Below, piece by piece: positions 2,450-7,199 of a DNA stretch of 12,239 nucleotides (within the stretch, counting starts at the first letter, position 1; every line of letters starts with the position of its first letter). The stretch is taken from NCBI GenBank assembly GCA_900557315.1, contig USSI01000024.1, forward strand, positions 1 to 12,239, read 5' to 3'. A program made the translations under genes and the position numbers. Source of the stretch: an uncultured Butyricicoccus sp. (GTDB taxonomy: Bacteria; Bacillota; Clostridia; Oscillospirales; Butyricicoccaceae). The notes beneath the pieces were generated by a model. The model worked only from the letters and a program-made list of their open reading frames with translations, was not told the DNA's origin and made no database searches.

Positions 2450-3178
2450 TCATTTGCTTTCCTTTTCTCTGCAGCAGCTCCCCGCTGCCCCCTTCCGCTC
2501 ATGCAGCCAGCGCGCCGCATACACGACCGGCGTATCCAGCAGCGAGGTAAAGATAAAAATCACATAGCTCGACAGCGCGACCGACAGCAGCGTGCCCCAG
2601 TCATAGATGCCGTAAAACGCAAACAGCGTGAACAGCACGGTGTTGAGCAGCTGGGAGACCAGCGTCGAGCCGTTGTTGCGCAGCCACAGGAACGCGCGGT
2701 GGTCGCCCGTGCGGTTCTCGGTCAGCGTCCACCACTTGTGATACAGCCACACGTCGAAATTCTGCGCCACCACATACACCGCGAGCGAGGACAGCATCAT
2801 GCGCGGGGTGTTGGAAAACACCGCCTCCATCGCAGGGCGCACCCAGTCGTTCGCGGAGGGCACATAGAGCAGCCAGGACTGCGACACGATGATAAACAGC
2901 ACGTTTGCCGCGATGCCCGCCCAGACCGCCTTCTGCGCCTCTTTTTTGCCCGCAACCTCGCTTAAGATGTCGGTTACCAGGAAGGTGGTGGCAAACAGGA
3001 TGTTGCCGAGCGTCATCTCCATGCCGAACGCGTCCAAAAGGATCATGACCTCGATGTTCGCCGCGATGGTAGCGAATACAGTAAACGCCATCAGGCCGCC
3101 CGTGCCGAACAGGCAAAACCACAAAAGCACTGCACCGTAGAGCACGACGAGCGATCCGATCAGCAGTAATTCATTCAT
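2450..3178 (-). CDS. yhhQ: YhhQ-family queuosine precursor transporter
   Basis: 242 aa, very hydrophobic, with about six or seven membrane segments, so an inner-membrane importer. In E. coli, YhhQ takes up the 7-deazaguanines preQ0 and preQ1, and other members have shifted to queuine. Family features visible are TDILSE at 69-74, the RMMLSSLAVYVVAQNFD stretch from residue 126, and RNNGSTLVSQLLNT at 167-180; length matches the family. Its ATG overlaps the end of the upstream radical SAM gene by 8 bp and is served by GGAG 9 nt upstream, so the two are translationally coupled. The operon ends in a 12-bp hairpin. Substrate (preQ0, preQ1 or queuine) cannot be read from the sequence; coupling to a radical SAM enzyme favours queuine. 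The C-terminal tail is polar with a CC pair. Confidence 0.88.
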   Translation of the reverse strand: MNELLLIGSLVVLYGAVLLWFCLFGTGGLMAFTVFATIAANIEVMILLDAFGMEMTLGNILFATTFLVTDILSEVAGKKEAQKAVWAGIAANVLFIIVSQSWLLYVPSANDWVRPAMEAVFSNTPRMMLSSLAVYVVAQNFDVWLYHKWWTLTENRTGDHRAFLWLRNNGSTLVSQLLNTVLFTLFAFYGIYDWGTLLSVALSSYVIFIFTSLLDTPVVYAARWLHERKGAAGSCCREKESK

Positions 3179-3890
3179 TTTCCAGTTCTCCTACGCCAAA
3201 ATCAGTGTTCTCGAGCAGGATGTCCACGCGCGGGTCATCCTTGTAACGTGGATACACCTCGCGGACAAAGGCCGCGCGGACGCTGTCGTCCGGCCGGACC
3301 TCAGTGGAGTTCGGAACCATGATGTTGACGCAGACGCGGTCAAAATGCACAAGACCGGTCTCGATATCGCGCGCCATGCCCTCTGCGGTCTGTCCGGCGA
3401 GGCCGAACAGCAGGCAGCAGTCGTCGAAATCCGCCGCAATCTTCGCGGGGTCGGCCTCGTCGATGCCCTTGTCGAGCACACGCTCGCGGTAATCCGCGTC
3501 AAAGGTCTCGACGCCGATCTTGACGTGCAGCGTCACGCCCTGTTTAGCGAACCGCTCCCGCAGGGCGGGGAGGGTCTTGCGGAAAATCCAGTGGCTTTCG
3601 ATATGCAGGTCGCGGATGCGCTTTTCGCGGCACACCCGCTCGACTTCGCGGACGGTGGATTCGTCCAGCTCGGCAAACGAGCCGGAATTGATCGCCTCCA
3701 GCCGGCCGTAGACGCCAGTCACATGGGACAGCGCCTCGCGGTTGAGCCGCAGGTTTTCCTGCTCGTCGCGCGACGCATCCAGATGGTAGTCGCAGAATTT
3801 GCAGCGCTTCCACGCGCAGCCCCGGCCGCGCAGCAGCACGATTTCGCGCGGGTTTTTGTCACGGATCACCGAATAACGGGTCAAATCCAC
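3171..3890 (-). CDS. Radical SAM enzyme, probable queuine lyase (QueL-like)
   Basis: 239 aa from the GTG at 3888-3890, chosen because GGAGG lies 7 nt upstream. A longer ATG frame from 3956 would translate straight through a terminator hairpin and is rejected. The iron-sulphur cluster motif is C25-X4-C30-X2-C33 (GCAWKRCKFCDYH), an atypical spacing compared with CX3CX2C. IGVETFDADYRERVLDKG further on resembles the core barrel of radical SAM proteins. Established knowledge: in gut Clostridia a radical SAM enzyme, QueL, releases preQ1 from queuine and works with queuosine-precursor transporters. Here the gene overlaps a YhhQ transporter gene and sits behind a preQ1-like leader, so QueL is my best call. 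That assignment is by context; radical SAM membership is firm. No other queuosine gene (tgt, queA, queG, queK) is in the window. Confidence 0.8.
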   Translation of the reverse strand: MDLTRYSVIRDKNPREIVLLRGRGCAWKRCKFCDYHLDASRDEQENLRLNREALSHVTGVYGRLEAINSGSFAELDESTVREVERVCREKRIRDLHIESHWIFRKTLPALRERFAKQGVTLHVKIGVETFDADYRERVLDKGIDEADPAKIAADFDDCCLLFGLAGQTAEGMARDIETGLVHFDRVCVNIMVPNSTEVRPDDSVRAAFVREVYPRYKDDPRVDILLENTDFGVGELENE

Positions 3891-3910
3891 TGTTTCCCCT
3901 CCGTTCTGGC

Positions 3911-3940
3911 AAAAAAATAAGGCGTACCCTGCGGTACACC
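3911..3940 (-). terminator. Intrinsic terminator inside the leader of the radical SAM/yhhQ operon (attenuator)
   Basis: In the minus-strand transcript GGUGUACC GCAG GGUACGCC (8-bp stem including one U-G pair, 3921-3940) is followed at once by UUAUUUUUUU (3911-3920). No minus-strand gene lies upstream, because the neighbour is divergent. The hairpin also sits between the promoter at 4067-4094 and the GTG at 3890. It can therefore only act as a premature terminator controlling this operon. Confidence 0.85.
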
Positions 3941-4006
3941 ATCCAAACCGCGCCAAAGGCGCGCACCAAGCCCTCCGATCAAACCTGTAGCTTCAATCGA
4001 AGTTTT

Positions 4007-4047
4007 CCCGTAGTTTTGTTTATAGACAGGATGGTTCCGAACTGTCT
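4007..4047 (-). promoter_or_regulatory. Candidate preQ1-I type riboswitch aptamer
   Basis: Reading the minus strand: a 6-bp stem AGACAG/CUGUCU (4042-4047 with 4024-4029) encloses a 12-nt loop UUCGGAACCAUC, followed by the A-rich tail AUAAACAAAACUACGGG (4007-4023). As I recall it, the B. subtilis preQ1-I aptamer has the same plan: a short stem, a 12-nt loop ending in C, then AUAAAAAACUAAGG. Position (about 13 nt after the predicted start), the downstream terminator and the queuosine genes all agree. The loop does not offer the UAG that pairs with CUA in B. subtilis, so the second pseudoknot helix is not clear. The class assignment stays tentative. Confidence 0.6.
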
Positions 4048-4066
4048 GCTCTTCAGTTGCTTTTCC

Positions 4067-4094
4067 ATTATAGCGGATTTCCCCGGAAAGTCAA
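4067..4094 (-). promoter_or_regulatory. Sigma-A promoter of the radical SAM/yhhQ operon
   Basis: Minus strand TTGACT (4089-4094), 16-nt spacer, then a perfect TATAAT (4067-4072). The predicted start is near 4060, giving a leader of about 170 nt to the GTG at 3890. The leader contains a CGCGCC/GGCGCG hairpin (3949-3963) as well as the aptamer-like fold and the terminator. Confidence 0.82.
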
Positions 4095-4097
4095 GCA

Positions 4098-4103
4098 TAT
4101 ACT
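4098..4103 (+). promoter_or_regulatory. Possible -10 element for the AGCS symporter gene
   Basis: TATACT matches 5 of 6 consensus positions and would give a leader of about 23 nt, but no convincing -35 lies 16-18 nt upstream. If real, it lies beside the -35 of the divergent operon, so the two promoters would compete. A small TTTCGC/GCGAAA hairpin (4103-4119) directly precedes the ribosome binding site. Confidence 0.35.
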
Positions 4104-4132
4104 TTCGCAGAAAGCGAAAAAGGGGGATTTCC

Positions 4133-5536
4133 ATGCTTTGGGACCGGATTGCACAACTCAACGACATGGTGCACGCCTTTGTGTGGGGCGTGCCCATGCT
4201 CGTGCTGCTGGTGGGGGCGGGCGTGTATTTCACCGCGAAAACCGGGCTGTTCCAGATCCGCTACATCGGCCTTTGGCTGCGCAAAACGCTGTTTTCCTGC
4301 TTTACAGGCGAGGCGCGCCGCAAAGGCGGCGGGCAGGCGGTCTCGCCGTTCGCCACGATGTGCACCGCGCTCGCCGCGACGGTCGGCACGGGCAACATCG
4401 CGGGCGTGGCGACCGCGCTCACCATCGGCGGGCCGGGCGCGGTGTTCTGGATGTGGATTTCCGCCTTTTTCGGCATGATGACCGCATTCGCGGAAAACAC
4501 GCTCGGTATGCTGTACCGCGAACGCGGCCCGGACGGCGCATGGCGCGGCGGGCCGATGCTGTACCTGAAAAAGGGGCTGCACAGCCCGTTTCTGGCCGCG
4601 GCGTTCGCGCTGTCCTGTGTGCTCGCCTCGTTCGGCATGGGCAACATGAGCCAGTGCAACTCGATCGCGGGCGGGCTGTCCGGCGTATTCGGCGTGCCGC
4701 CTCTTGTGACCGGCATTGCCACCGCCGCGCTGCTCGGCGCAGTCATGCTGGGCGGGCTGAAGCGCGTTACCCGGGTGACCGAAACGCTCGTGCCCTTCAT
4801 GGCGCTCTTTTACATGGGCGGCGCGCTTGTGGTTCTGTGGTGCAGGCGCGAATACCTTCCACAGGCCTGTGGACAAATCCTTGCCTGTGCCTTTGACTGG
4901 AAAGCGGGCACGGGCGGCGCGGCGGGCTACGGCATCGCGCAGGCCCTGCGCACCGGCGTATCGCGCGGGGTGTTCTCCAACGAGGCGGGGCTGGGTTCAT
5001 CGGTTATGGTGCACGCGGCGGCGGACGCAAAGGAACCGTGCGAGCAAGGCATGTGGGCGGTGTTCGAGGTGTTTTTTGACACCATCGTCATGTGCACCAT
5101 GACGGCGCTCGTCCTGCTGTCCAGCGGCGTATATGACGCCGCACTGTACGGCGCTGCCGCGGGCACGCCCCTGCTCGCCCAGCTCGCCACGGGCGCACAG
5201 CTGACCGCGGCGGCCTTCTCCACCGTGTTCGGCCCGCCCGGCGGCGGGTTCGTCGCGGTGTCGCTCGTACTGTTCGCGTTTTCCACCCTGCTCGGCTGGT
5301 CCTATTACGGCCAGCGGGCGGCGGAATACCTGTTCGGCGAACACGCCGCGCCGGTCTACCGGGCGCTGTTCCTTGCCGCGGCCGTCCTTGGCTGCACCAT
5401 GCGGCTGGATCTGGCGTGGGCGCTGTCCGACACTTTCAACGGCCTGATGGCGCTGCCCAACCTGATAGGCGTGCTCGCACTGCGCCGCGAGGCGCTCGGC
5501 GCATGGTCCCGTTACCGGCGGACAAATCATATTTGA
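4133..5536 (+). CDS. AGCS-family alanine/glycine:cation symporter
   Basis: 467 aa, polytopic membrane protein of the AGCS (AlsT/DagA-like) family, importing alanine or glycine with Na+ or H+. The start at 4133 is chosen because AGGGGG lies 6 nt upstream; an in-frame ATG at 4016 lacks such a site. Family signatures seen: VGTGNIAGVATALTIGGPGA from residue 84, the ENTLGMLYRE region (about 121-130), the GGPM segment near 139-142, and FSNEAGLGSS at 301-310 followed by the AAADAKEP loop. Length is typical and the frame is intact. It stands alone: divergent from the queuosine operon and separated by 166 bp and a promoter from the next gene. I see no glycine riboswitch upstream and no clear terminator downstream. 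Which amino acid or ion it prefers cannot be told. Confidence 0.93.
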   Translation: MLWDRIAQLNDMVHAFVWGVPMLVLLVGAGVYFTAKTGLFQIRYIGLWLRKTLFSCFTGEARRKGGGQAVSPFATMCTALAATVGTGNIAGVATALTIGGPGAVFWMWISAFFGMMTAFAENTLGMLYRERGPDGAWRGGPMLYLKKGLHSPFLAAAFALSCVLASFGMGNMSQCNSIAGGLSGVFGVPPLVTGIATAALLGAVMLGGLKRVTRVTETLVPFMALFYMGGALVVLWCRREYLPQACGQILACAFDWKAGTGGAAGYGIAQALRTGVSRGVFSNEAGLGSSVMVHAAADAKEPCEQGMWAVFEVFFDTIVMCTMTALVLLSSGVYDAALYGAAAGTPLLAQLATGAQLTAAAFSTVFGPPGGGFVAVSLVLFAFSTLLGWSYYGQRAAEYLFGEHAAPVYRALFLAAAVLGCTMRLDLAWALSDTFNGLMALPNLIGVLALRREALGAWSRYRRTNHI

Positions 5537-5683: not shown

Positions 5684-5702
5684 ATTGAAGGGGGAATTTG
5701 GA

Positions 5703-6320
5703 ATGGATTTAACGGCAACGGCATGGACATTACTGCCGCCGGTCATTGCCATCGCGCTGGCGCTGATTACAAAAGAGGTTTACTCCTCGCTGCTGATCGG
5801 CATTCTGGCCGGCGCACTGCTGCTGAACGGCTTCCACCCGCTGCACGCGGTTGAAACGACGTTTGAAGTCATGGGCAGCAAACTGGGGGATAACATCAAC
5901 ATCTGTATCTTCCTTGTGCTTCTCGGCATCCTGGTTTCGCTTGTCACCAAATCGGGCGCGTCGCGCGCGTACGGCGACTGGGCGGTCAAAACCATCCGGA
6001 CGCGGCGCGGCGCTTCCTTCGCGACCTCGTTCCTCGGCATATTCATTTTCGTGGACGACTATTTCAACTGCCTGACTGTCGGCACAGTCATGCGTCCGGT
6101 CACGGATAAGTACCGCATCACGCGCGCCAAACTGGCCTATATTATCGACGCAACCGCCGCGCCTGTGTGCATCATTGCGCCGATCTCAAGCTGGGCGGCG
6201 GCAGTCGGCTCCTCGCTGCCTGAATCGAGCAGCATGGACGGCTTCTCGCTGTTTTTGCAGACCATACCGATGAATCTGTATGCCCTGCTGACGATCGGCT
6301 TCCTGGTCTGGCTGATGTGA
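5703..6320 (+). CDS. N-terminal half of NhaC-family antiporter
   Basis: 205 aa from the ATG at 5703, which has AGGGGG 8 nt upstream; a TTG at 5685 in the same frame is not needed. Several membrane segments are visible. The highly conserved NhaC-family stretch runs from FVDDYFNCLTVGTVMRPVTD through the IIDATAAPVCIIAPISSWAA segment, which lines the ion path in this family. The frame ends LVWLM-stop in what should be a cytoplasmic loop at mid-protein. On its own it lacks half of the transport core and is unlikely to work alone. Confidence 0.75.
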   Translation: MDLTATAWTLLPPVIAIALALITKEVYSSLLIGILAGALLLNGFHPLHAVETTFEVMGSKLGDNINICIFLVLLGILVSLVTKSGASRAYGDWAVKTIRTRRGASFATSFLGIFIFVDDYFNCLTVGTVMRPVTDKYRITRAKLAYIIDATAAPVCIIAPISSWAAAVGSSLPESSSMDGFSLFLQTIPMNLYALLTIGFLVWLM

Positions 6321-6341
6321 GCGGATTTTGACTTTGGCCCC

Positions 6342-7199
6342 ATGGCCAAATACGAAAAGGCGCATAAGGACGACGACCTGACGCATGTTGAGGAAAACTA
6401 TGTGGTCGGCGGTGCGGGCAAGGTGTATGACCTCATCCTGCCGATCTGTGTGCTGATTGTGCTGTGCATCTCGGGTATGCTGTACACCGGCGGCATCCTG
6501 GATGGGGCCGGCATCATTGATGCATTCGCCAACTGCGACTCCTCCACCTCGCTTGTGCTCGGCTCGTTCTTTACGCTGATTTTCACCTTCCTGCTGTATA
6601 TCCCGCGGAAAATCCTGTCCTTCGGCCAGTTCTGCGAAGCGTTCACCGAGGGCTTCAAGGCCATGGTGCCCGCTATCCTGATCCTGACCCTCGCCTGGAC
6701 GCTGTCCGGCGTGTGCTCGGAGGAATATCTCAACATCGGCGGTTTTGTCTCCTCGCTGGTGAACGGCGAATCCATGATCGCTACGCTCATGCCTGCGATC
6801 TTCTTCCTGATTGCGCTCGGCCTGGCCTTCGCGACCGGCACCTCCTGGGGTACGTTCGGCATCCTCATCCCGATCGCGGTTGCGGTGTTCGGCGACTCGC
6901 CCAACACCATGCTGGTTATGACGGTTGCGGCCTGCCTGTCCGGCGCGGTCTGCGGCGACCATGTCTCGCCCATCTCGGATACGACCATCCTCGCCTCTGC
7001 GGGCGCACAGTGCAACCATATTGACCACGTTTCCACCCAGATGCCGTATGCGCTGATGATTGCGGCAATCAGCTTTGTCGGCTTCCTCGTAGGCGGCATC
7101 ACAGGCAACGGCTTTGCAGCGCTTGTGCTCGGCGCGGCGCTTCTGATCGGCGCGATTGTGGTGCTGACCCTGAAGTACGGCAAAAAGGAAGCCCAGTAA
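6342..7199 (+). CDS. C-terminal half of NhaC-family antiporter
   Basis: 285 aa in the same frame as the N-terminal half, beginning 21 nt after its stop. The ATG at 6342 has no ribosome binding site (the bases before it are C/T-rich with GGCCCC), so independent expression would be poor. Conserved family features: a charged loop, then VPAILILTLAWTLSG, LAFATGTSWGTFGILIPIA and the CGDHVSPISDTTILAS signature near residues 200-220. It ends at 7199 followed by a 9-bp hairpin. Best read as the remainder of the interrupted gene. Confidence 0.75.
   Translation: MAKYEKAHKDDDLTHVEENYVVGGAGKVYDLILPICVLIVLCISGMLYTGGILDGAGIIDAFANCDSSTSLVLGSFFTLIFTFLLYIPRKILSFGQFCEAFTEGFKAMVPAILILTLAWTLSGVCSEEYLNIGGFVSSLVNGESMIATLMPAIFFLIALGLAFATGTSWGTFGILIPIAVAVFGDSPNTMLVMTVAACLSGAVCGDHVSPISDTTILASAGAQCNHIDHVSTQMPYALMIAAISFVGFLVGGITGNGFAALVLGAALLIGAIVVLTLKYGKKEAQ

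Follow-up and report, generated by a model that had tools for sequence, protein, structure and literature searches.

A probable type I preQ1 riboswitch with a lengthened P1 and L3 ahead of a queuine lyase operon in Butyricicoccus, and its relatives in the class Clostridia

INTRODUCTION

Class I preQ1 riboswitches of type I are the described systems that most closely resemble the leader analyzed here. In the portion of PMC11625349 used here, the type I consensus is given as UU...UC in the loop and CUA in the 3' tail, and pairing of position 34 is described as dispensable. Type I aptamers are described as binding two preQ1 molecules in the excerpted text of PMC8752633, and the Carnobacterium antarcticus riboswitch in that text provides the nearest comparison for our locus, which is located in a 12,239-nucleotide stretch of DNA (the window) from an uncultured Butyricicoccus sp. 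The two leaders share the UU...UC loop (12 nt by the C. antarcticus numbering), bases U6, U7, U16, C17, A30, and C31, the C8-A12-U32 ceiling, A33, and, in our model, the OFF logic. Judging from the C. antarcticus numbering, in which G5-C18 closes P1 and A30 precedes C31, P1 in the window is one pair longer and L3 is two bases longer. The expression platforms also differ: the window has a terminator, whereas C. antarcticus uses a Shine-Dalgarno sequence.

Two further systems are relevant. In Clostridioides difficile, a class I aptamer likewise sits on a queuine/preQ1 salvage operon that includes queL (queK-qrtT-queL), and QueL converts queuine to preQ1, according to the part of PMC11477304 used here. 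Compared to that layout, the window has YhhQ where C. difficile has QrtT, and queK is absent next to queL. The type II riboswitch of the Bacillus subtilis queCDEF operon shares transcription termination and an OFF switch with our locus; in the same portion of PMC11625349, it differs in that AC takes the place of UC in front of the P1 3' strand, a single ligand is bound, P2 is Watson-Crick, and the antiterminator is based on the A-rich L3. We dropped the B. subtilis aptamer as the comparison because the window loop fits type I.

RESULTS

An initial annotation of the window had proposed a near-consensus promoter (TTGACT-16-TATAAT), a 6-bp stem with a 12-nt loop and an A-rich tail, and a terminator ahead of the first gene. 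All of these parts were present on the minus strand where they had been placed (Table 1). The promoter (4094..4067) had 11 of 12 consensus matches, with 0.2 expected in shuffles, and the hairpin (4047-4024) consisted of a 6-bp P1 and a 12-nt loop. The terminator (3940-3911), which had a stem of 8 pairs (3940-3921) followed by a U tract (3920-3911), was located upstream of the GTG start at 3890. Terminator-like sites numbered 3 in the 551 bases scanned, relative to 1.0 expected (standard deviation, 1.1). The terminator count alone was thus unimpressive, and we consider the window terminator to be above chance because the leader was conserved among relatives.

Table 1. Coordinates of the leader and operon features in the window
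Feature	Position	Strand	Basis or remark
Promoter	4067..4094	-	-35 TTGACT 4094-4089, 16-nt spacer, -10 TATAAT 4072-4067
P1 5' strand, AGACAG	4042..4047	-	Canonical pairs, compensatory changes in 171 long-P1 aptamers
Loop, UUCGGAACCAUC, 12 nt	4030..4041	-	Pocket bases U6, U7, C8, A12, U16, C17 (PMC8752633 numbering)
P1 3' strand, CUGUCU	4024..4029	-	Sequence and long-P1 alignment
A-rich tail, AUAAACAAAACUACGGG	4007..4023	-	Sequence
A-rich L3, AUAAACAAAA, 10 nt	4014..4023	-	8 nt in the Rfam-positive form
CUAC: C31 (second-ligand base), U32, A33, C34; pseudoknot P2 3' strand	4010..4013	-	
ACCAUCC, proposed antiterminator 5' strand, overlapping the ligand pocket	4029..4035	-	Transcript folding
GGAUGGU, proposed antiterminator 3' strand, overlapping the terminator 5' arm	3938..3944	-	Motif count and folding
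Intrinsic terminator, GGTGTACC-GCAG-GGTACGCC and TTATTTTTTT	3911..3940	-	Stem -13.0 kcal/mol
Shine-Dalgarno-like GGAGGGG	3896..3902	-	Sequence
queL, queuine lyase (radical SAM), GTG start	3171..3890	-	PDB 6p78, E 8e-55
yhhQ, queuosine-precursor transporter, overlapping the end of queL	2450..3178	-	PF02592, 158.6 bits; TIGR00697, 170.4 bits (cut-off 51)

The genes agreed with the proposed radical SAM/YhhQ salvage operon, since the first encoded QueL (PDB 6p78) and the second a queuosine-precursor transporter (TIGR00697). PDB 6p78, which is named queuine lyase, was the sole solved relative of the window QueL at E <= 0.001. Of 2863 candidates, 2274 were homologous to this protein at E <= 1e-10, and its only NCBIfam match was a weak one (RaSEA, 39.9 bits; cut-off, 212). 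Among named genomes, the closest QueL proteins (91-92 percent) were those of Candidatus Agathobaculum species, which belong to the class Clostridia. Tgt was found in all seven relatives. Two Agathobaculum genomes were tested for QueC and neither had it above its cut-off; because these genomes lacked QueC at that score and carried Tgt, the results suggested that these two salvage preQ1 from outside.

Two neighboring genes were observed on the plus strand of the window. A gene for a sodium:alanine symporter (agcS, 474 bits) at about 4133-5536, with a start read by eye, was divergent from the riboswitch, and its promoter is probably located within or opposite the riboswitch leader. Further along, an Na+/H+ antiporter-like gene (5685-7199) appeared to be split by a stop, giving the frames 5685-6320 and 6342-7199; this is either a disrupted gene or a sequence error.

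The Rfam scan of the window returned nothing at any gathering score. In a permissive scan of 301 bases, the best of three matches was to RF00522 (PreQ1), at 18.0 bits (cut-off, 39; E 0.22), and the alignment dropped one P1 pair and inserted four bases after P1. The preQ1-II and preQ1-III models had no match up to E 10 in 3850-4150. Thus, the preQ1-I-like fold named in the initial annotation went unrecognized by the preQ1-I, -II, and -III covariance models at the gathering score, and the leader is not filed under RF00522 as modeled in release 15. Similarly, none of 20 sequences (the window and 19 relatives) had a preQ1 match at the Rfam cut-off. An 18-bit match alone is weak evidence, but the queL leader was the best-scored RF00522 match in six of seven whole genomes (19.4-26.7 bits), with 150 of 189 to 713 first-look candidates scored per genome. 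In the seventh genome, that of Pseudoflavonifractor capillosus An386a, no such aptamer was found before queL, and the best match (16.6 bits) was on another contig.

The stem, loop, and tail picked out in the initial annotation proved to be strongly conserved among relatives: the stem and loop were found within 450 bases upstream of queL at 66 of 80 related loci. No aptamer was found at the other 14, two of which (L041 and L050) have just 94 and 111 bases upstream; the remaining 12 include an Agathobaculum locus (L014). Of 65 distinct relatives, 51 had a promoter-like site with at least 9 of 12 matches no more than 75 bases upstream of the aptamer, compared to 132 of 1300 dinucleotide shuffles. 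We aligned 50 of the 53 distinct queL aptamers, omitting L005 and L030 (13-nt loop) and L078 (different L3). Five of the six P1 pairs were invariant, and the sixth kept its pairing in 49 of the 50 aptamers. An extra, sequence-specific role for P1 was considered and set aside because the inner pairs varied with compensation in a wider set of aptamers, described below.

The initial annotation had noted that the loop departs from the B. subtilis sequence and that the pseudoknot helix was unclear. The first point stood, but the loop does match the type I consensus as given in the portion of PMC11625349 used here; specifically, it starts with UU and ends with UC, and CUA is present in the tail. As for the second point, the helix fits the weak, partly noncanonical P2 described for type I in the excerpt of PMC8752633. 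The bases that this excerpt assigns to the alpha site (U6, C17, A30, and the closing G-C) and the beta site (U7, U16, and C31) are all present in the window. All 171 distinct long-P1 aptamers carried pocket bases U6, U7, U16, C17, A30, and C31 (U6, U7, and C17 were imposed by the search pattern) as well as A33 of the tail, and 166 had U32. By analogy with the described type I aptamers, the window RNA would probably bind two stacked preQ1 molecules.

With regard to P2, the A12-U32 pair was present in 50 of 50 queL aptamers. Pair 10-34 was standard in 36 of the 50 (U-G in 16, G-C in 12, A-U in 7, and U-A in 1) and unpaired in 14, and it changed on both sides in queL leaders. However, covariation at this pair, which was good in queL leaders, failed in the wider set, where 10-34 was standard in only 69 of 151 aptamers. 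Therefore, P2 rests mainly on A12-U32.

A model built from the 50 queL aptamers (R1) matched 140 of 391 genomes of the class Clostridia at E <= 0.01, whereas RF00522 was over its cut-off in 10 of the 391 and reached E <= 0.001 in 34. Because 15 candidates were scored per genome under strict filters in both runs, these genome counts may be low. The sequences behind R1 were nearly identical, and its matches are therefore biased toward their letters; R1 missed three of ten short-form leaders, and at least two of the 140 genomes (G270 and G392) matched at a short-form aptamer only. We inspected the best 130 R1 places (E 1.5e-6 or better), some of which were the queL loci behind R1 itself. The first gene was queT at 76, a double-cubane-type reductase gene at 16, queL at 10, a YhhQ-family gene at 10, queD at 8, queC at 2, and queE at 1; five places had other or unassigned frames, and two had no frame. 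Thus, control of queuosine synthesis or transport genes, a further trait of type I, held for the window and for 107 of the 130 places, those with queT, queL, queD, queC, queE, or a YhhQ-family gene first. Genes were labeled by sequence cluster with one representative checked, and the queL cluster was labeled by likeness to the window QueL. The QueT representative matched PF06177 (140.6 bits), the QueD representative had 77.9 bits (under its cut-off of 89), QueE and QueC were identified, and one of two YhhQ clusters passed Pfam but was under the NCBIfam cut-off (45.3 versus 50.95).

Three pooled alignments gave 187 rows and 178 distinct sequences, of which 171 were of the long form and 7 of the short form. 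The search pattern imposed U6, U7, C8, C17, and G-C pairs 2 and 6 of P1, and the 7 sequences that it dropped were all short-P1. L3 was 10 bases in all 171 long-form aptamers, and the outer P1 pair was canonical in 166. The P1 hairpin of type I was present throughout: the inner five pairs were canonical in 171 of 171, and three of them showed compensatory types (pairs 3 to 5, as A-U/U-A/G-C and C-G/G-C). The ten places over the RF00522 cut-off preceded nucleoside-hydrolase- and ECF-transporter-like genes, which we labeled queK-like and qrtT-like by analogy to C. difficile as described in the part of PMC11477304 used here; their representatives were under the family cut-offs. These ten leaders are short-P1, with a P1 of 5 pairs and an L3 of 8 bases (read by eye). 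The divergent subtype that the initial annotation raised as a possibility is therefore apparent as a P1 lengthened by one pair and an L3 lengthened by two bases relative to the Rfam-positive form. Judged by sequence comparison, this form is a type I preQ1 riboswitch variant with a long P1 and a long L3 and not a new ligand class.

Some members of the set had additional features. Ten long-P1 aptamers (L202, L216, L221, L228, L232, L237, L239, L241, L242, and L243), all before queD, queE, queC, or YhhQ-family genes, had a 15-nt loop and possibly represent a further subtype. CCA replaced CUA in the tail (U32 to C) at L228, L232, L237, L242, and L243. At L157, L142, L162, L232, and L243, a YhhQ-like transporter gene under a long-P1 aptamer was followed by a short-chain-dehydrogenase-like gene (labeled by eye).

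Sixteen R1 leaders preceded genes for a 2-hydroxyglutaryl-CoA dehydratase-like (HgdB-like) protein (PF06050, 134.5 bits) and an ATPase activase (TIGR00241, 173.5 bits); the loci were L139, L135, L145, L150, L146, L152, L154, L155, L158, L160, L156, L174, L180, L190, L191, and L215. A queD or queC gene was found behind these two genes at 8 of the 16, the fetched stretch ended too soon at four, and neither gene was seen at four. The reductase matched 6eno, which we take to be a double-cubane protein, at E 1.3e-11 (best stretch, 69 profile positions) and NF040772 at 49 bits (cut-off, 350). QueF was absent from all 16 reductase genomes and present in all nine genomes that had R1-led que genes and no such reductase. 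Across the class, the reductase (E <= 1e-60) was found in 26 genomes and QueF (above 100 bits) in 38, with no overlap, although this zero alone is weak because about 2.5 shared genomes were expected. Six more genomes, which passed the Pfam QueF cut-off at 28-32 bits, were left out as presumed carriers of other T-fold proteins. QueC over its cut-off was found in 24 of the 26 reductase genomes and 27 of the 38 QueF genomes (2 and 11 lacked it, respectively), compared to 0 of 41 sampled genomes with neither. The genomes without QueC in both groups, and the relatedness of the genomes, weigh against a replacement of QueF. Our reading is that the double-cubane-type reductase is probably an oxygen-sensitive, non-homologous replacement for QueF and a candidate preQ0 reductase.

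The proposed expression platform was examined by folding. When the window transcript ended at the terminator 5' arm, the ACCAUCC:GGAUGGU pairing had a probability of 0.83-0.88. When the full leader was folded, the terminator was at about 1, and P1 had a probability of 0.01 or less in this nested fold, which includes neither pseudoknot nor ligand. GAUGG, which is complementary to CCAUC of the loop (the segment holding U16 and C17), was the commonest 5-mer at the terminator foot in queL leaders (32 of 57), and GAUGG or GGUGG was found there in 38 of the 57, compared to 14 percent in shuffles. A duplex-energy test was weak, with 10 of 57 queL duplexes at p <= 0.05 singly, and we therefore added a transcript-folding test with shuffled flanks, which covered 55 leaders (the other two of the 57 had short flanks). 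In this test, CCAUC paired with the terminator foot at a probability above 0.5 in 40 of 55 queL leaders, relative to 163 of 660 shuffled-flank controls (Wilcoxon p 1e-7, real versus shuffled, over 42 similarity clusters).

In the model that we infer for the ligand, its stoichiometry, the direction of switching, and the competition, the aptamer would not hold when preQ1 is scarce. ACCAUCC, which spans A12 through the base that opens the P1 3' strand, would then pair with GGAUGGU and block the terminator, queL-yhhQ would be transcribed, and queuine would be taken up and cleaved to give preQ1. With abundant preQ1, two stacked ligand molecules would probably lock U6, U7, U16, C17, A30, and C31 in the pseudoknot; ACCAUCC would no longer be free, the terminator would form, and the operon would be off. 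In the queL group, then, the folding model makes the loop a probable site of competition between ligand and antiterminator.

It is also conceivable, though unlikely, that the aptamer is real and represses but that the platform works without ACCAUCC:GGAUGGU, for example through pairing of P1 or L3 strands to the terminator or through pausing. Consistent with this idea, GAUGG or GGUGG occurs in just 1 of 16 queT leaders and 2 of 7 double-cubane leaders, CCAUC:GAUGG pairing did not exceed 0.3 in 21 of the 57 terminator-bearing queL leaders, and the B. subtilis antiterminator uses the A-rich L3, as described in the portion of PMC11625349 used here. Against it stand the pairing probability in the window and the positional enrichment of the motif in queL leaders, mostly at offset -3 or -1 to the stem. 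The nonfitting queL leaders and the rarity of the motif in queT leaders indicate that the antiterminator is not universal; the nonfitting leaders probably use other strands or translation, and for the window we retain the ACCAUCC:GGAUGGU antiterminator.

The queT loci are informative about the direction of switching. By mechanical start calls, queT began within 12 bases of the 48-nt match at 38 of 76 loci, and 35 of those 38 had a Shine-Dalgarno-like 4-mer in the tail or spacer. Therefore, the ligand-bound state should be OFF at these loci, and the terminator and Shine-Dalgarno designs would both make the bound state OFF.

DISCUSSION

The aptamer, the identities of the genes, the terminator, and the conserved GAUGG motif were all drawn from sequence comparison, and together they make it very likely that the leader is a preQ1-I-type riboswitch that represses. 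The proposal in the initial annotation, a preQ1-sensing OFF switch on a salvage operon, was for the most part supported: the gene identities and the conserved type I aptamer spoke for it, and the 18 bits against the Rfam cut-off of 39 did not. The whole explanation, namely, a terminating class I, type I preQ1 riboswitch of the long form with an ACCAUCC:GGAUGGU antiterminator and OFF logic, has in our estimate a probability of roughly 0.7.

The choice of ligand was weighed against queuine, the substrate of QueL, and preQ0, either of which the aptamer might have come to bind on an unchanged scaffold. The operon salvages queuine, and the nearly fixed P1 of the queL leaders (5 of 6 pairs invariant in 50 sequences) would suit such a shift. 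However, compensatory changes in P1 occur in the wider set, and a substrate sensor on a salvage operon should be ON, whereas the modeled logic is OFF. In addition, the same pocket bases precede queT and queD/queE/queC, whose shared end product is preQ1. Because eleven R1 places were on de novo que genes (queD, 8; queC, 2; queE, 1), preQ1 is a likelier shared ligand than queuine, and it is the one that fits an aptamer common to de novo synthesis, import, and salvage. Thus, a change of ligand appears quite improbable, and queuine was set aside given the downstream genes and the OFF logic. Finally, an ordinary attenuator or a constitutive terminator, with a hairpin that arose by chance, would account for the missing Rfam match at the cut-off and for the putative status of the ligand, but the conserved pocket bases and the queuosine-related genes downstream make it very improbable indeed.

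Among the papers listed in our literature searches, none was seen to describe the long-P1/long-L3 form. The form appears to be both common and overlooked, and it may already be among the 1577 type I sequences from which the published consensus was drawn. A broader proposal, to which we give even odds, is that it constitutes an unlisted class I subtype in which P1 gained one pair and L3 two bases in step. This subtype would be the dominant class I form in Clostridia and would sense two stacked preQ1 molecules; its queL antiterminator would be made from ligand-binding bases, and two ligands and the antiterminator would compete for one short segment. If true, a type I aptamer with termination, in which pocket bases double as the antiterminator, would offer a simple way to test direct competition between ligand and antiterminator.

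Among the genes under the long-P1 variant there is also a candidate to fill a missing enzyme step. Given that RF00522 was over its cut-off in 10 and R1 matched in 140 of 391 Clostridia genomes, annotation at the Rfam cut-off would miss much class I preQ1 regulation in this class. Animals salvage queuine from bacteria, as noted in the part of PMC4425180 used here, and a wider model would help with mapping the synthesis and salvage of queuosine precursors, including the fate of queuine.
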